From: Ramlibacter agri
GTDB lineage: Bacteria > Pseudomonadota > Gammaproteobacteria > Burkholderiales > Burkholderiaceae_C
Reading direction: 5' to 3'
NCBI RefSeq assembly: GCF_012927085.1
Contig: NZ_JABBFX010000002.1
Coordinates: 434,001-498,000, forward strand
DNA: 64,000 bases
Below, in pieces: positions 57,855 to 63,517 of the stretch (positions within the stretch are counted from its first letter, which is position 1; every line of letters begins with the position of its first letter). Under the pieces are notes generated by a model. The model made no database searches and was not told the DNA's origin. It saw only the letters and a list, made by a program, of their open reading frames with translations. Made by a program: the position numbers and the translations under genes.

Positions 57855-58232
57855 CTAGGGTGGCGGCGAAGGCCAGGCCTTCAGCAAGCGCGTGAGCTCG
57901 CGCTTCTGCTTCGCATTCGATTGACGCCAGGCGTTCCTGGCCAGCGCGAGGAAGCGGTCCTCGGCCGGATCGGCCGCGGGCCCTTCCTCGCGTTCTTCGT
58001 CCAGCCAGCCGGCGGCCTGGCCGGCATGCTGCTCGATCTGGCGCGCCAGCTTGTCGCCGATGGGGCGCGCGGACTTGATCTGCGACCAGGTGCTCGGTGA
58101 AATTTCGAGAGTTGCCGCGAAGGCCTGCTCGAGGCCCTTGGCACTGGCGCCCTGCGCGAGCTGCTGCCGCGCGTAGCCTTGGTACAGCGCCTGCATGTTG
58201 CGGCGCCGGGTAACGGTCACGTTCTCTGTCAC
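57855..58232 (-). CDS. Putative small DNA-binding protein
   Basis: A 125-residue hydrophilic protein. The middle QGASAKGLEQAFAATLEISPSTWSQIKSARPIGDKLARQIEQHAG resembles a lambda-type helix-turn-helix. The C-terminus is basic (NAKQKRELTRLLKAW). The start is uncertain: GTG at 58232 is used, TTG at 58250 or ATG at 58196 are alternatives, and none has a clear Shine-Dalgarno. It is convergent with the chemoreceptor gene with two bases between stops. A regulator of the nearby sRNA region is possible. Confidence 0.65.
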   Translation of the reverse strand: MTENVTVTRRRNMQALYQGYARQQLAQGASAKGLEQAFAATLEISPSTWSQIKSARPIGDKLARQIEQHAGQAAGWLDEEREEGPAADPAEDRFLALARNAWRQSNAKQKRELTRLLKAWPSPPP

Positions 58233-58277
58233 TGTGTTCAATTCGCGCAACGGCGCAAGAAAAGATTGTGCACCCGC

Positions 58278-58306
58278 TTGCGCGACTTGTTAAGACTCTT
58301 TATAGT
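58278..58306 (+). promoter_or_regulatory. Sigma-70-type promoter for a putative small RNA
   Basis: TTGCGC (58278-58283), a 17-base spacer, then TATAGT (58301-58306). Start of transcription would be near 58313. It points to a terminator 190 bases further on. Confidence 0.5.
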
Positions 58307-58312
58307 CGCGTC

Positions 58313-58539
58313 CCTCGCCTCCCCTGAGGCATGCAACCAAGCTTTCCAAGGACCCATCGTGCTATCGAACCGACCCACCACAGCAGCCATGACCCGCATC
58401 GCGGGGCAGCGGCCGTATGCGTGCGGCCATGAGGATAGCTGCGGCAGTCCGGGAGCGGGAGACGTGTAGGCGCGTCCCGCATCAACCTCTTTCACCAGAG
58501 GCCCGGACTCCGCAAGGAATCCGGGCCTTTCTGTTTTTT
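58313..58539 (+). ncRNA. Candidate small RNA, promoter to terminator
   Basis: About 225 bases between a good promoter and an intrinsic terminator with no convincing gene. A 26-codon reading frame (58389-58469, MTRIAGQRPYACGHEDSCG...) could be a leader peptide, but it lacks a ribosome binding site and any run of a regulatory amino acid. The sequence upstream of the terminator is hairpin-rich. It is either a trans-acting RNA or an attenuated leader for the gene at 58825. Confidence 0.4.
58499..58539 (+). terminator. Intrinsic terminator
   Basis: 13-base arms AGGCCCGGACTCC and GGAATCCGGGCCT around a GCAA tetraloop, with one mismatch, then TTCTGTTTTTT. It is a strong Rho-independent terminator on the plus strand. 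Confidence 0.9.
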
Positions 58540-58773
58540 CTTTCCCCTGTGCCGCATCGACGACCCCGGGTGTGTTCCTTGACAACTTGCCGCGAGGCAG
58601 CGCCGGCACTGGCCGGCCGCTGCTTCGCACCTTTTCACTTCGGGTGTGCCCAGGCACCACCGTCCGCGCGCAGCCGCGGGAACGGCAGGACGGGATGTGC
58701 ACGGGGTCGCTCCCCATGTGCAGCGAGGGCCCCGGGCCGGCATGCCGGCCGCTCGCGCCTGGACACAGCCGAA

Positions 58774-58793
58774 GTGGAAAGCCGCTTTTCCAC
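58774..58793. repeat. Short hairpin before the small ORF
   Basis: GTGGAAA (58774-58780) and TTTCCAC (58787-58793) are perfect inverted arms around a six-base loop, 31 bases before the ATG at 58825. The 285 bases between the terminator and this ORF show nothing else recognisable. It may be a leader structure. Confidence 0.4.
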
Positions 58794-58824
58794 CGCCATT
58801 CAACCAACTCACCTGGGAGCCATC

Positions 58825-58980
58825 ATGATCCTCACGCTTTGCCAGATTGCGGCCACTGTGATCGCACGATGGCTGTCCACCTGGAGGCATTCGCGCCGTG
58901 TGCGTGTGCAGCCGGTTCCGCCCGAACCACTCGATGAAGAAGACGTCGCCCAGCGCGTGCGCCTGAGCGGCGAGTGGTGA
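58825..58980 (+). CDS. Putative small peptide, 51 residues
   Basis: Reads MILTLCQIAATVIARWLSTW then a basic Arg-rich patch and an acidic C-terminus (EPLDEEDVAQRVRLSGEW). The N-terminal part could be a short amphipathic or membrane helix. GGGAG lies five bases before the ATG. It ends ten bases from the convergent chalcone-isomerase-like gene. No family is recognised, so it may be spurious. Confidence 0.45.
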   Translation: MILTLCQIAATVIARWLSTWRHSRRVRVQPVPPEPLDEEDVAQRVRLSGEW

Positions 58981-58989
58981 CGCCCTTTG

Positions 58990-59586
58990 CTACTGGTCGA
59001 GCGCCAGCAAGGCCTTCTTCAACAGATGGTCCGCCGGCGCATCGCCCACCCAGATCTTCAGGATCATGCCGAAGAACTCGGCGTCGCCGACCGGCGCGCC
59101 CTGCGGCTGGTCCTGGATGAAGAACTGCGTGCCCTTGCCGGGGACGTACTCCATGGCGAAGGTGTCGCCCGGCACCAGCTTGGACTTGCCCGAAAAGATC
59201 TCGATCAGGCGGTTGCTGGAAACCGCGTGCTTCTGGACCTTGTCCTTCGGCGAGTTCTCCTGCAGCCCCTTGATGAACAGCAGGCCCAGGTCCGTACCCG
59301 GGAGTTCGCGCAGCGCCGTGAACTGCAGGCGCATCGGGCCCGCCTGCTTCAGGAGGGTGTCGGGCGAACTGGCCTTCGCCGCCGTGTACAGGCCGAGGTC
59401 GTAGACCTTGAAGACCGCCTTGTACCGCGTGCCGGCGCCATTCAGCTGCAGCCGGGTGCCTGCCACCTGGATCTCGGACGGGAAGTTCGTCTGGGTGGGG
59501 GCGGCAACGGCAAGGGTCGAAGCCACGAGCGCAAGAGCCGCCAGGCTCGAGGGAATCACGCGGCGGACAGGGGGAACGCGAGGCAT
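58990..59586 (-). CDS. Exported chalcone-isomerase-like protein
   Basis: A 198-residue protein with a signal (SSLAALALVASTLAVAAPT) and a chalcone-isomerase-like (chalcone_3) domain. Typical parts are LNGAGTRYKAVFKVYDLGLYTA, MRLQFTALRELPGTDLGLLFIKGLQ and FFGMILKIWVGDAPADHLLKKALL. It is probably a periplasmic small-ligand (fatty-acid-like) binding protein rather than a flavonoid enzyme. It is divergent from the RNA-repair remnant. Confidence 0.87.
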   Translation of the reverse strand: MPRVPPVRRVIPSSLAALALVASTLAVAAPTQTNFPSEIQVAGTRLQLNGAGTRYKAVFKVYDLGLYTAAKASSPDTLLKQAGPMRLQFTALRELPGTDLGLLFIKGLQENSPKDKVQKHAVSSNRLIEIFSGKSKLVPGDTFAMEYVPGKGTQFFIQDQPQGAPVGDAEFFGMILKIWVGDAPADHLLKKALLALDQ

Positions 59587-59679
59587 GAGGTCTCCGAAGC
59601 TTAAGTGGAAGGCCTTCTGAAGCTTAGGGGAAATGCCCGGACCGCAACCCCAGGCTGTGGGTTTGCCGTCACAGCCCAT

Positions 59680-59695
59680 TGGCCGATCCCTCGCG
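59680..59695 (+). promoter_or_regulatory. Possible sigma-54 promoter of the RNA-repair locus
   Basis: TGGCCGA, four bases, TCGCG: GG (59681-59682) and GC (59693-59694) are ten bases apart, as at -24/-12 of sigma-54 promoters. The match to TGGCACG-N4-TTGCW is only partial. RtcR-controlled rtcB operons use such promoters. It overlaps the start of the hairpin at 59686-59709. Confidence 0.3.
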
Positions 59696-59709
59696 AAAGC
59701 GTGAGGGAT
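59686..59709. repeat. Hairpin in the leader of the rtcB remnant
   Basis: ATCCCTC and GAGGGAT are perfect 7-base arms; the inside has GC-gaaa-GC, giving a GNRA-like tip. It lies 34 bases before the remnant's ATG and could protect the 5' end of the transcript or mark an attenuation or protein-binding site. Confidence 0.4.
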
Positions 59710-59742
59710 TGCGCAACGAACAACAACGACAAGGAGCGTCCC

Positions 59743-59810
59743 ATGGAACTCATGCCGACCTGGTCGACGTCGTGCACACGCTGAAGCAGGTGCTCTGCGT
59801 GAAGGGCTGA
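59743..59810 (+). pseudogene. rtcB: Remnant of rtcB (3'-5' RNA ligase), C-terminal codons only
   Basis: The frame 59754-59810 reads ADLVDVVHTLKQVLCVKG and then a stop. This is the invariant C-terminus of RtcB RNA ligases (E. coli RtcB ends SDLVEVIYTLRQVVCVKG). The rest of the about 400-residue enzyme is missing. Just upstream is a strong AAGGAG Shine-Dalgarno and ATGGAACTC, but that ATG is out of frame with the remnant. An internal deletion therefore joined the gene's start to its last codons. The downstream HNH, tRNA-like and slipin genes were presumably rtcB neighbours. Confidence 0.75.
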
Positions 59811-59865
59811 TGCGGGAGGGGGCCCGCGCGGCCCCGTCTTCATCCACCCCGAGCAAGGAGAACCC

Positions 59866-60426
59866 ATGCATTCCGTCCTGCAACTGGACATCCAGGGCAC
59901 CCCGCAGGCGTGGATCGGCCTCGAGGAGGCCGCCCTGCACTACGCCGCCGGCTCGGTGGTGTGGGAAGACGGCGCCGGCCCGCTGGCCACGCTGCGCGGC
60001 GGCTGGAACGCCGTCACGGGCCGGCAGTCGCGCATCGACGTCGCGCCCATCGTGGCGCTCCGTGGCCACGCCAGGCTGAACCTGTTCGACGTCGTGCCCG
60101 GCGTGACCAAGGCCAAGCTGCTTCGCCGCGACCGCCACACCTGCGCCTACTGCGGCGAGGTGTTCGCGGAGCGCGAGCTGCAGGCCGAGCACATCGTGCC
60201 GGACTCGTGCGGCGGCGCCTACAGCTGGATGAACCTGGTCACCGCCTGCGCGGCATGCAACGCGCGCAAGGCGAACCGGACGCCGGAAGAAGCCGGCATG
60301 CCGCTGCTGTACCTGCCGTACGTGCCGACGCGCTTCGAATCCTTCCTGCTGGAAGGACGCCGCATCCGCGCCGACGTGCACGAATGGCTGGCCGCGAGGC
60401 TGCCGAAGCATTCGCGCCTGCACTGA
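59866..60426 (+). CDS. HNH endonuclease
   Basis: A 186-residue nuclease. The C-terminal half has a zinc-bound HNH/beta-beta-alpha-Me fold: CAYCGE, the catalytic H in QAEHIVPDS, NLVTACAACN with Asn and the second C-x2-C pair, then KANRTPEEAGMP. The N-terminal half (WIGLEEAALHYAAGSVVWEDG) resembles the substrate-binding part of RtcB-linked HNH proteins and has no known motif. AAGGAG is five bases before the ATG. It sits between the rtcB remnant and a tRNA-shaped RNA, which might be its target. All HNH residues are intact. Confidence 0.88.
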   Translation: MHSVLQLDIQGTPQAWIGLEEAALHYAAGSVVWEDGAGPLATLRGGWNAVTGRQSRIDVAPIVALRGHARLNLFDVVPGVTKAKLLRRDRHTCAYCGEVFAERELQAEHIVPDSCGGAYSWMNLVTACAACNARKANRTPEEAGMPLLYLPYVPTRFESFLLEGRRIRADVHEWLAARLPKHSRLH

Positions 60427-60582
60427 TTCCAGTGCGGGCGCAACGAGTCTTTCGTGGAAGCGCATGCGCTCACAGGTCGGGGTTCACCAGCCCCGCCGGC
60501 GTGCAGCGGCCGGGAATCCCGTCGCCGCGGCACGTGCCGCCATGCAGGGACGCGAGGGAACGGGTGACTCGATCACCCTCCA

Positions 60583-60656
60583 CTGTTGATAGCTCAGTCT
60601 GGTAGAGCAACGCGCTGCTAACGCGTCTGTCGCAGGTTCGATTCCTGCTCACATCG
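60583..60656 (+). ncRNA. tRNA-like RNA with GCU anticodon and defective acceptor stem
   Basis: A cloverleaf is clear: D arm GCTC-AGTCTGGTA-GAGC (60592-60608), anticodon stem ACGCG/CGCGT around CTGCTAA (60610-60626; anticodon GCT at 60617-60619), variable region CTGTC, T arm GCAGG-TTCGATT-CCTGC (60632-60648). The acceptor arms CTGTTGA and TCACATC pair at only three positions next to the body, or five with a bulged T. It also lacks the long variable arm of true tRNA-Ser. It is probably not aminoacylated. RtcB operons in other bacteria contain tRNA-like RNAs, and this fits that context. Confidence 0.72.
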
Positions 60657-60673
60657 ATTGGAAATCGACAGCA

Positions 60674-60723
60674 AACCCCGGCCGCGCCAGCGGCACGGTC
60701 CTGCGCGGACGGCAAGCGGGGTT
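60674..60723 (+). repeat. Hairpin following the tRNA-like RNA
   Basis: Perfect arms AACCCCG (60674-60680) and CGGGGTT (60717-60723) enclose a GC-rich, further-structured loop. It could be a 3' extension of the tRNA-like transcript. There is no T-run after it, so it is not an intrinsic terminator. The 130 bases to the slipin ATG show nothing else. Confidence 0.4.
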
Positions 60724-60853
60724 CCGCGTACACGGCCAGCCAGCTGCCCCGCGGGGCGGCGGCGCACTGTGCACCCGGGCCCAGGCACCGCCCGCCCGCC
60801 GTGCCCCTGAACCGGCCCCCTCTTCATCAACGCACGCACACAAGGAGAACAAG

Positions 60854-61990
60854 ATGCAATTCAAGCGTGTGACCATCCGCAAGAGCGAGCGCGGCCTGCT
60901 GCTGCGCAACGGCGACTTCGAGCGCGTCCTGCGCCCGGGCAAGCACCGGCTCGCGAGTTTCGCCGACGACCTGCAGGTACAGGTCTTTTCGCTGGGCGAG
61001 CCCGGCTTCGCGCACCCGCTCACCGAGTACCTGCTGGCCGAGGAGCCCGATGTGGTCGAAAGCGAATTCGAACGCGTCGAGCTCGGCCCCGACCAGGTCG
61101 GCCTGCGCCACGAGAACGGCGTGCTGGTCGAGATCCTGCCGCCCGGCTCGCGCAAGCTGTACTGGCGCGGCCTAATCACGGTGCAGGTGGAAGTGATCGA
61201 CATCGCCGCCGCGCCCGAGGTGCCGGCCGAACTGCTGCCGCGCCTGCTGCAGGTGCAGCTGCGCCCGCGTGCCGTCGCCGGCCTGGCCGGCGTGCTGCTG
61301 GTGCAGGTGCCCGAGCTCGGCGCCGGCCTCGTCTACGTGGACGGCAAGATCGTCCGCCGCATCGGTCCGGGCGCGTACGGCTTCTGGCGCTTCAACCACA
61401 ACGTCGCGGTCGAAGTGCTGGACCTGCGCATGCAGGCGCTGGAAGTGACGGGCCAGGAGATCCTGACCCGCGACAAGGTGAGCCTGCGCCTGAACCTCGC
61501 GGCCACCTGGCGCTACACCGACCCGCTGAAGGCGTACGAGCAGCTGGCCAAGCCCGCGGACCACCTGTACCGCGAGCTGCAGTTCGGCCTGCGCGCCGCC
61601 GTCGGCACGCGCTCGCTCGACGAGCTGCTGGAGAACAAGACCGTCATCGACGACGTCGTGTCCGCGCACGCGCGCGCCAAGCTCTCGCCTTTCGGCGTGG
61701 AAGTCGACAGCGTGGGGGTGAAGGACATCGTGCTGCCCGGCGAGATGAAGACCATCCTGGCGCAGGTGGTCGAAGCGGGCAAGGCGGCCGAAGCCAACGT
61801 GATCCGCCGCCGCGAGGAGACCGCGGCGACGCGTTCCCTGCTGAACACGGCCAAGGTGATGGAGGACAACCCCACCGCCCTGCGCCTGAAGGAGCTGGAA
61901 ACGCTGGAACGCGTGGCGGAACGCATCGACCGCATCTCGGTGTTCGGCGGCCTCGACCAGGTGCTCAACGGGCTGGTGAAGCTGCGTTGA
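60854..61990 (+). CDS. Slipin (SPFH/stomatin-like) protein
   Basis: A 378-residue SPFH/Band-7 protein. The N-terminus (RKSERGLLLRNGDFERVLRPGKHRLASF) and central SPFH domain (DLRMQALEVTGQEILTRDKVSLRLNLAATWRYTDP and SPFGVEVDSVGVKDIVLPGEM) are typical. It is longer than common 250-residue slipins and resembles the RtcB-linked form. It has no obvious N-terminal membrane helix. AAGGAG is six bases before the ATG. It is separated from the tRNA-like RNA by 197 bases and ended by a strong terminator. In RNA-repair operons slipin is a recurrent partner of RtcB; its role there is not established. Confidence 0.9.
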   Translation: MQFKRVTIRKSERGLLLRNGDFERVLRPGKHRLASFADDLQVQVFSLGEPGFAHPLTEYLLAEEPDVVESEFERVELGPDQVGLRHENGVLVEILPPGSRKLYWRGLITVQVEVIDIAAAPEVPAELLPRLLQVQLRPRAVAGLAGVLLVQVPELGAGLVYVDGKIVRRIGPGAYGFWRFNHNVAVEVLDLRMQALEVTGQEILTRDKVSLRLNLAATWRYTDPLKAYEQLAKPADHLYRELQFGLRAAVGTRSLDELLENKTVIDDVVSAHARAKLSPFGVEVDSVGVKDIVLPGEMKTILAQVVEAGKAAEANVIRRREETAATRSLLNTAKVMEDNPTALRLKELETLERVAERIDRISVFGGLDQVLNGLVKLR

Positions 61991-62002
61991 GCGGTGCCCT
62001 TG

Positions 62003-62038
62003 AAAGCCCCACGCCTGGCCGGCGTGGGGCTTTTTTTT
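62003..62038 (+). terminator. Intrinsic terminator after slipin
   Basis: AAAGCCCCACGCC and GGCGTGGGGCTTT, perfect 13-base arms with a TGGCC loop, followed by T8. It is a strong Rho-independent terminator on the plus strand. Confidence 0.95.
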
Positions 62039-62041
62039 GGC

Positions 62042-63091
62042 TCACGGCAAGCCGAGGAACTTGAAGGGCGGCGACGCCACGAAATCCTTGAGCGCATTGC
62101 CTGCGAAAGTGTTGCGCTGCTCGGGCCCGAGGTCCAGCTTCTTGACCTGGGCGCCCGGGCTGAAATCCACCTGCTTCAGGTCGACCCAGAACACGTTGGG
62201 CGTCAGCGCCGATTCGAAGAAATAGAGCTTGCGCTTGTGGTCGGCAAGGGTGCGCCAGCGCGTCGACGAGATGTTGGGCTGGCCGGGCGTGGTGATGCCG
62301 AAGGGCACCGACGCGTTGCGGATCACGCTGAACATGCCGGCCACCGCAACCACGGGGTCCTCGCTCTTGGGAATGGCGTTCACGTAGAAGGAAGCGCGCG
62401 CAAAGCGGTCGGCCGAGCGGTTGGTGCCGGGGAGCATCACCGTGCCGCCGATCTCCTTCCAGTAGGCATTCAGCGCGAGCTGGTCGTCGAACCTCGGCGA
62501 ATTGGTCATCACCTGGTACTTGCGATCGTGGTGGATCACCTGCTTGCCGCCTATGTATTCGACGATCGCGCTGTCGCCGCTCGCGTCGGACATGGACAGG
62601 TGCACCGTCGCCAGCCGGTCCTGCCCCGGCACCTTGTCGGTGACGAGGACGAAGGGCTCGCGGCGCAGCGCATCGACCGCCTCCTTCACCGTGGCGAAGT
62701 TGTCGAGAACGTACTGCGCCCACAGCGAGATCGCGAGCCCGGGCTGTGAACCGTCGAACTTGGGATATTCCGACTCCACCAGCCAAAGAAGATTGGCCGC
62801 AAGCCCGGCCTCGTTCATGCCGTCCGTCGTCGACACTTCGTAGCCGGAAGCGATCACGCTGCCGTAGCGGGACGTCCACTGCACCGAGCTCGGGCCCACC
62901 TCGCCGTTGCGCGCCATGCCCCGGGGAAAGATCCAGAGATTGGTCTCGATGTCGGCGTTCCAGTCCATCGAACGCGCCGTGATCACGTCGTTGTCGTTGC
63001 CGAGGTAGACGATGCGCGTGCAGGCGTCCACCGCGCCGGACGCAAGCGCCCATGCGAGGGCGACGGCGATCGCCTTTCCCCACTTGGACAT
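62042..63091 (-). CDS. Linear-amide C-N hydrolase (choloylglycine hydrolase/penicillin V acylase family)
   Basis: A 349-residue Ntn hydrolase. The signal peptide (IAVALAWALASGAVDA) leads to CTRIVYL, so cleavage exposes Cys24 as the nucleophile. Further conserved parts are ARSMDWN (Arg and Asp), MNEAGLAANLLWL and NSPRFDDQLALN. Members hydrolyse bile-salt amides, penicillin V, N-acylhomoserine lactones or other N-acyl amides. The start at 63091 has AAGGAGG six bases upstream. Convergent with the slipin gene across the terminator. Exported location suggests a role in amide scavenging or quorum quenching (inference). Confidence 0.9.
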   Translation of the reverse strand: MSKWGKAIAVALAWALASGAVDACTRIVYLGNDNDVITARSMDWNADIETNLWIFPRGMARNGEVGPSSVQWTSRYGSVIASGYEVSTTDGMNEAGLAANLLWLVESEYPKFDGSQPGLAISLWAQYVLDNFATVKEAVDALRREPFVLVTDKVPGQDRLATVHLSMSDASGDSAIVEYIGGKQVIHHDRKYQVMTNSPRFDDQLALNAYWKEIGGTVMLPGTNRSADRFARASFYVNAIPKSEDPVVAVAGMFSVIRNASVPFGITTPGQPNISSTRWRTLADHKRKLYFFESALTPNVFWVDLKQVDFSPGAQVKKLDLGPEQRNTFAGNALKDFVASPPFKFLGLP

Positions 63092-63268: not shown

Positions 63269-63517
63269 TCAATCCTCCTCGCGACCGCCGGTGCGAACCA
63301 GCCGCGCCAGCGCGACCTTCTCGGCGCGCCGAAGCGCGCCGGCGCTGCGCACGTGGCGCCCCGCCGCGTTGGACGAGGCCCGCAATGCGGCGGCGCGAGC
63401 CACGTGGTTGCGGGGTTCGACAGCGAGACGAATCTGCAGGGTGATCGGCTGCTTCATGCGTTGCAGCTTCTTCACCTGCCCTTGCGCGAATCCGCGCGAC
63501 AAAACCTTGGCGGACAT
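63269..63517 (-). CDS. Small basic hypothetical protein
   Basis: An 82-residue, Arg/Ala-rich basic protein (VKKLQRMKQPITLQIRLAVEPRNHVARAAALRASSNAA). It is predicted helical and could bind nucleic acid. GGAGG lies seven bases before the ATG at 63517. A longer in-frame reading to 63661 has no such signal. Function unknown. Confidence 0.6.
   Translation of the reverse strand: MSAKVLSRGFAQGQVKKLQRMKQPITLQIRLAVEPRNHVARAAALRASSNAAGRHVRSAGALRRAEKVALARLVRTGGREED

Follow-up and report, generated by a model that had tools for sequence, protein, structure and literature searches.

The window analysed here is a 64-kb stretch of DNA from the 7.2-Mb genome of the soil bacterium Ramlibacter agri. It carries a small divergent gene, a candidate promoter and operator, a candidate leader ORF, a candidate terminator and a conserved structured RNA (denoted rnaA), followed by the remains of an rtcB gene, an HNH endonuclease gene, a tRNA-like RNA and a slipin gene (Table 1). 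The divergent gene gave no Pfam family above the cut-off, and the Pfam scan showed no RHH family. An Rfam scan of 58200-62100 returned the tRNA-like RNA as its only match above gathering score. ARAGORN found no array tRNA in the window module; its lone tRNA call in the window (63279-63368, minus strand) is outside the module and lacks a proper anticodon. Compared with Caenimonas koreensis, the slipin shows a dN of about 0.18 and a dS of about 0.62. Between rnaA and the rtcB remains, a chalcone-isomerase-like gene (58990-59589, minus strand) lies antisense; its best other match in the 60 genomes of the genus is 46% identical.

Table 1. Features of the locus, in window positions.
Feature	Position	Strand	Basis or remark
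Small divergent gene, 131 aa, candidate repressor, HTH-like by eye only	57855-58250	-	tblastn relatives in related loci
Candidate promoter: -35 TTGCGC, 17-nt spacer, -10 TATAGT	58278-58306	+	alignment with 13 relatives
Candidate operator, imperfect inverted repeat GTTAAGACTCTTTAT	58289-58303	+	symmetric at 5 of 7 arm positions
Candidate leader peptide ORF of 36 aa with 17 of the 20 amino acids, starting at GTG behind AAGGA	58359-58469	+	
Candidate intrinsic terminator (attenuator)	58498-58540	+	-24.9 kcal/mol, T-rich tail
Conserved structured RNA rnaA	58636-58778	+	nhmmer, covariation, no Rfam match
Place of the array in Caenimonas koreensis (11 of the 12 tRNAs preceding its rtcB)	58779-59730		no tRNA here in the window
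Shine-Dalgarno sequence AAGGAG of the former rtcB	59731-59736	+	as in Caenimonas koreensis
Former rtcB, codons 1-4 (MELM)	59743-59754	+	same sequence as in Caenimonas koreensis rtcB
3' end of the former rtcB, in another reading frame than the start	59755-59810	+	DLVDVVHTLKQVLCVKG-stop at 59757-59810
HNH endonuclease, tRNA-array type, open frame of 186 aa	59866-60426	+	Pfam HNH_5/HNH; 83% to Caenimonas koreensis
tRNA-like RNA, degenerate acceptor stem	60587-60651	+	Rfam tRNA, 52.7 bits
Slipin (Band_7/SPFH), open frame of 378 aa	60854-61990	+	Pfam PF01145

A relic of rtcB in front of the HNH gene

A sequence-only reading had taken 18 codons that match the RtcB C-terminus, with AAGGAG and an out-of-frame ATG before them, for what an internal deletion left of an rtcB gene, and had found no RtcB body in the window. 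Each of these points was borne out. When three RtcB proteins were compared with the whole window by tblastn, the scar was the top match for all three (E values of 2e-5, 1.5e-4 and 4.7e-5); the remaining matches, with E values of at least 0.011, were chance-like. No RtcB catalytic body is present within the 64-kb window, and the scar represents a deleted gene. The tail frame at its end translates as DLVDVVHTLKQVLCVKG-stop, and reading from the ATG at 59743 yields MELMPTW..., out of frame with it.

Caenimonas koreensis carries an intact rtcB (L023 3212-4414) directly before the HNH gene, the tRNA-like RNA and the slipin. This gene starts, after AAGGAG, with ATGGAACTCATG and ends with GTGAAGGGCTGA. 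The window likewise holds ATGGAACTCATG after AAGGAG, the exact 5' end of the Caenimonas koreensis gene. Alignment with this relative showed that both gene ends match in order: the start region is matched by window 59730-59754 and the last 60 nt by window 59751-59810. Thus 68 of 1203 nt are retained (the first 12 and the last 56), and the 1135 nt missing break the reading frame; the joint itself can be placed only to within a few nucleotides, because 59751-59754 partly fits both sides.

Over the last 54 nt, the relic differs from the Caenimonas koreensis gene at 8 positions, all 8 of them third codon positions. In this comparison, which spans only 17 codons, pS is 0.545 and pN 0.026, as against 0.474 and 0.122 for the HNH gene and 0.421 and 0.157 for the slipin. 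Differences confined to third positions, together with the low pN, indicate that selection maintained rtcB for most of the period since the two lineages split and that the deletion is recent. The scar is therefore the relic of a Caenimonas koreensis-type rtcB that suffered a recent internal deletion of 1135 nt; our label rtcB2 denotes this type, not the published RtcB2-PrfH family. Taken by itself it is a recent pseudogene, and ordinary pseudogenisation. The earlier statement that the remaining genes stayed intact holds for HNH and slipin, whose frames are open, and only in part for the RNA component: the array is gone, the acceptor stem of the tRNA-like RNA is paired at 3 of 7 positions and the -35 box is deviant.

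The module in related loci

A search of genome contigs with the slipin yielded 262 relatives, and the best 80 by similarity to the query, which are not a random sample, were examined. With the window they make up 81 loci, 23 of HNH type (HNH match above 50 bits) and 58 without. We counted rtcB at a match above 200 bits in the locus, and as tRNAs every ARAGORN call on the plus strand of the stretch retrieved, including the one between HNH and slipin. Three genomes appear under two labels each: Caenimonas koreensis DSM 17982 (L038, L023), Ramlibacter sp. WS9 (L030, L025) and Caenimonas soli (L034, L122).

The gene order in Caenimonas koreensis is tRNA array, rtcB, HNH, tRNA-like RNA, slipin. A tblastn relative of the divergent gene is found in 20 of the 23 HNH-type loci, the window included, compared with 4 of the 58 others; the contig extends little or not at all upstream in the three HNH-type loci lacking it (L033, L049, L071). 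rnaA is present in 19 of 23 and at least five tRNA calls in 11 of 23, with up to 20 calls in a locus. Seventeen of the 23 keep rtcB intact, after the slipin in 15 and before HNH in two (L038, Caenimonas koreensis, and L049, in which the contig cuts the rtcB start). The remaining six have no rtcB in the locus: the window, L032, L040, L046, L048 and L071, the contig of the last stopping 698 nt past the slipin. Among the HNH-less loci of the best 80 of 262 slipin relatives, rtcB was found in the locus in 58 of 58.

Partial HNH matches occur in L041 (9368-9478, residues 148-184) and L053 (9363-9488, residues 4-45), both fragments, and in L037 (9021-9478), which has lost residues 24-51; all three keep rtcB. 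The L028 HNH has an internal gap. Fragments of HNH beside a kept rtcB indicate that HNH as well as rtcB is lost piecemeal. Within the genus the slipin occurs in 4 of 60 genomes. Some HNH match is found in 54 of 59 Ramlibacter genomes, mostly a paralog of 55-59%, and the operon type (at least 77%) in 4. We conclude that the module is a Burkholderiales unit of divergent regulator-like gene, candidate operator, leader ORF and terminator, rnaA, tRNA array, HNH, tRNA mimic, slipin and RtcB, that it erodes piece by piece across relatives, and that the window holds a reduced copy, which has lost the ligase and every array tRNA.

In 14 aligned loci, the interval between the divergent gene and rnaA contains a -35 box, which reads TTGAC except in L043 (TTGAA) and the window (TTGCGC), an inverted repeat that covers the spacer and -10 region, a small ORF and a T-tailed hairpin rich in GC. 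Of the 7 arm positions of this inverted repeat, 4 to 7 are symmetric in the 9 relatives measured. The terminator hairpin pattern was matched in 21 of 25 rows; the five that were folded gave -23 to -28 kcal/mol. A generic promoter and terminator scan listed neither the module promoter nor the leader terminator; it listed a promoter-like site at 58293-58265 and a terminator-like site at 60690-60678, both on the minus strand.

The predicted leader peptides have 36-74 residues and use 17-20 kinds of amino acids, with a mean of 18.8 kinds versus 16.6 in same-length protein pieces of the same loci. Nineteen of 20 exceed their own background mean (L048 is below it) and 7 of 20 lie beyond their own 5% tail; by entropy, a measure of evenness, 18 of 20 stand above background, the exceptions being L076 and L048. 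As relatives of one another, the leaders do not amount to 20 independent trials, so that this richness is a lead and not proof. The test used 20 of the 25 rows, leaving out L122, which repeats the L034 genome, and L074, L036, L031 and L046, in which the terminator pattern was unmatched; in the alignment L046 shows a variant terminator. Where starts had no Shine-Dalgarno flag, they were set by alignment (L043, L045, L032, L040) or by likeness to L045 (L047). A leader peptide using nearly all amino acids would be the boldest feature of the module, and it is unproven.

rnaA gave 28 nhmmer hit rows, including one repeat of the L034 genome and one partial hit (the L038 copy is at 1985-2131), and lies inside or just before the tRNA array. 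In 25 sequences, 11 of its 28 pairs changed on both sides, compared with 5.7 +- 1.1 in shuffles, none of 500 shuffles reaching 11, in a structure derived from the same alignment, which favours covariation. As a control, sliding the partners gave at most 3 pairs with two-sided changes. Further pair types were not unusual (20 versus 17.8, reached by 64 of 500 shuffles). The tRNA-like elements before the slipin, of which 71 are listed, some loci twice, have a conserved D- and T-arm, a very variable anticodon arm, often with a tetraloop, and a short acceptor. Pseudomonas loci L089, L090 and L102 carry two tRNA-like elements in tandem upstream of the slipin.

The HNH type also occurs on plasmids. 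A tblastn search with HNH matched 42 plasmid records, and in all six that were chosen (Polaromonas, Methylibium, two Variovorax, two Nostoc) it stands beside 19-27 tRNA genes. Compared with such tRNA array units, the window module has an HNH of the array type and arrays in related loci, but no tRNA of its own by ARAGORN. Plasmid 3 of Variovorax sp. RA8 carries an annotated RNA ligase family protein (L135 3656-4717) within a 23-tRNA array that adjoins an HNH of this type; different enzymes may fill the ligase slot of the array module. On plasmid 2 of Variovorax sp. SRS16, a release-factor-like protein (L136 9814-10332) is encoded near a 25-tRNA array with HNH.

The second ligase and the state of the window copy

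The sequence-only reading had predicted either another RtcB copy that serves the module or a value of the module without its ligase. The genome search revealed one intact RtcB in Ramlibacter agri, denoted RtcB1 (420 aa, contig C1 490566-491687), about 57% identical to the Caenimonas koreensis type. Its gene lies between an NAD-GDH gene and SPFH and spermidine-synthase-like genes. RtcB is present in 18 of 60 genomes of the genus; at least one of the RtcB1 neighbours is common to 6 of 10 other Ramlibacter RtcB loci examined (G008, G001, G026, G023, G022, G058), and none occurs at G052:C19, G007, G009 or G002, the last a short contig. In Caenimonas soli, the divergent gene, the slipin and rtcB1 adjoin the same SPFH and synthase-like genes, as do HNH and rtcB1 in G052. 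RtcB1 as the relocated window gene is ruled out by the identity of about 57% and by a site common to relatives. With RtcB1 on contig C1 and HNH, tRNA mimic and slipin on C2, the genome holds complementary halves, and RtcB1 may serve the window module in trans.

The other branch of the prediction also found support, since four of the five rtcB-less HNH-type relatives belong to genomes in which no RtcB was detected (three of them MAGs). We give somewhat less than an even chance to the reading that the module works without ligase, with HNH, tRNA mimic and slipin having a job of their own and rtcB being dispensable and lost several times. Six of 23 HNH-type loci have no rtcB in the locus, and no RtcB match was found in the genomes of L032, L046 and L071 (all MAGs) or L040 (Roseateles saccharophilus DSM 654). 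L032 and the rtcB-bearing L045 and L047 are collinear as far as the end of the slipin, and collinearity resumes immediately behind the rtcB of the latter two. The slipins of L032 and L040 are open, with a dN of 0.064 versus a dS of 0.255, and that of L046 is also open to its end. Yet 17 of 23 HNH-type loci keep rtcB, the L048 genome carries RtcB on another contig, and the three MAGs are possibly incomplete. Moreover, the slipin dN/dS spans time before the ligase losses too, and the loss in the window is too recent to judge the value of the module without ligase.

The window copy may instead be dying, the tRNA array, ligase, -35 box and tRNA-like acceptor having gone first, with HNH and slipin to follow; this too we regard as a serious contender that falls a little short of probable. 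No array tRNA is left, the acceptor pairs at 3 of 7 positions, the -35 box reads TTGCGC where the 13 aligned relatives have TTGAC or TTGAA, the chalcone-isomerase-like gene sits antisense within the operon, and relatives have fragmentary HNH genes. The deviant -35 box and the poor acceptor imply that the locus may be dead. Against this, HNH, slipin, leader ORF, terminator and rnaA are all whole in the window, whose -10 box TATAGT is nearer the consensus than the -10 of relatives.

That the joint is an assembly artefact, with reads over an intact rtcB collapsed, is very improbable. The assembly does consist of 13 contigs with 4.65% contamination, but the joint is internal to a contig of 1,274,194 bases, and the likeness of the relic to the other RtcB gene of the genome is confined to 52 nt (90%) at the end of that gene. 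The repeat finder detected no direct repeat spanning the joint; within 58200-62100 the longest repeat has 31 nt (74%), and the relic is touched by three, of 18 nt (94%), 27 nt (74%) and 23 nt (74%). A chance match, or a short conserved element (peptide or RNA) without relation to rtcB, has nothing but the short length in its favour and is ruled out for practical purposes by both ends of one gene standing in order at the syntenic place with third-position changes only.

We therefore hold with good confidence that the scar is the relic of a recently deleted rtcB in a module that probably responds to damage to tRNAs or translation, the duty of the ligase possibly falling to RtcB1 in trans. In the full form, a repressor-like protein bound to the operator at the -10 box would hold the operon off, and a translated leader ahead of the terminator would tie its transcription to translation. 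Once tRNAs are cut or translation stalls, spare tRNAs, tRNA mimic, ligase, HNH protein and membrane slipin would be made to replace or repair tRNAs. In Ramlibacter agri, the ligase duty may have passed to RtcB1, and the window copy would be a reduced, perhaps decaying, remainder.

A bolder version, which we put forward tentatively and think rather less probable than its negation, sees the full module as a general tRNA-damage alarm and rescue kit, with a leader that senses the loss of almost any tRNA. A ribosome starved of almost any single tRNA would stall on the leader and thereby prevent the downstream terminator. Readthrough would yield the spare tRNA set, the structured RNA, the tRNA mimic, HNH protein, slipin and RtcB, and the fast-changing anticodon arm of the mimic might act as bait or sensor for anticodon nucleases. 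Because such a switch needs no RtcB, unlike that of RtcR operons, the module could let its ligase go, as the scar records.

The value of the scar is that it marks a module with a separable ligase; through it, an operon with a candidate switch coupled to translation came to light. This one operon in ordinary environmental bacteria links the literatures on Rtc RNA repair, tRNA arrays and SPFH/slipin proteins. It also offers a natural experiment on which part matters, ligase or HNH having been lost in some lineages and the ligase in 0 of the 58 HNH-less loci examined. Two further leads are a conserved RNA with no Rfam match and a possible attenuator that would respond when almost any tRNA runs short.

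Comparison with known RNA repair and tRNA array systems

The sequence-only reading had placed the cluster in an RtcR/sigma-54 context, which did not hold. The Ramlibacter agri genome has no match to RtcA or to TROVE (Rsr), and its lone RtcR match, on contig C4, is borderline (23.9 bits at a cut-off of 23.1; as protein 22.3 bits, below the cut-off). Among 20 genomes examined, RtcR was matched in 1 of the 14 whose loci carry the divergent gene (L035; 13 of these loci have an HNH match and L034 does not), and in 6 of 6 with HNH-less loci lacking that gene (two Acidovorax, two Pseudomonas, Rhizobacter, Formivibrio). Going by coordinates, the slipin and RtcR genes are no more than about 1.5 kb apart in all 7 cases. 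Matches to the sigma-54 consensus with at most 2 mismatches number 30 in the window versus 36.3 expected by chance; one lies at 58180-58195, inside the divergent gene, and none was found from there to 61440 by this consensus scan, which weak sites may escape. Control of the module by RtcR is rejected, there being no RtcA, no convincing RtcR in the genome and few RtcR genes among relatives with the divergent gene. The borderline match is a sigma-54 activator with a CARF-like N-terminus (L027 6978-8543). RtcAB is reportedly required for RtcR activation (PMC9650030). On our interpretation, such a need would explain why RtcR-type loci, unlike the other type, were not seen lacking RtcB.

The RtcR/sigma-54 operons, rsr-yrlBA-rtcBA of Salmonella and the rtc locus of P. 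aeruginosa, likewise bring together RtcB, a slipin and a tRNA-like RNA; the slipin PaFlo8 is reported within the rtc locus of P. aeruginosa PA14 (PMC13086221). Unlike them, the module has a small divergent gene, a leader with terminator, an HNH gene and a tRNA array. The Y RNA YrlA is described as carrying a tRNA-like domain (PMC7790460); the window RNA has a tRNA-like domain, in a genome that has no TROVE match. A second RtcB with a dedicated partner is reported for the RtcB2-PrfH operon (PMC9223846).

Among the matches listed from the open-licence literature, we found the Burkholderiales cluster nowhere described as a unit, nor any tRNA-array attenuator. The array units of Mycobacterium, phages and plasmids reportedly combine dense tRNA arrays with HNH, as the module does. 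An XRE regulator and HNH are given for about 87% of the tRNA array G2 group (PMC5966550), and in M. avium one HNH is reported as conserved in four array types, with a proposed antidefence role (PMC12803027). As far as the main texts of these two array papers go, RtcB is absent from them; the module joins array, ligase and slipin in one cluster. A further likeness, by annotation and regulation, is to the reported TrcR regulon of Anabaena (PMC10272220). There TrcR is the one repressor of a 26-tRNA operon, an HNH gene, rtcB and a slipin, whose expression increases with chloramphenicol, a translational stress. According to that account, the Anabaena regulon is scattered over the genome and has an RHH repressor, whereas the Burkholderiales module is one cluster with a different divergent gene and an attenuator-like leader.
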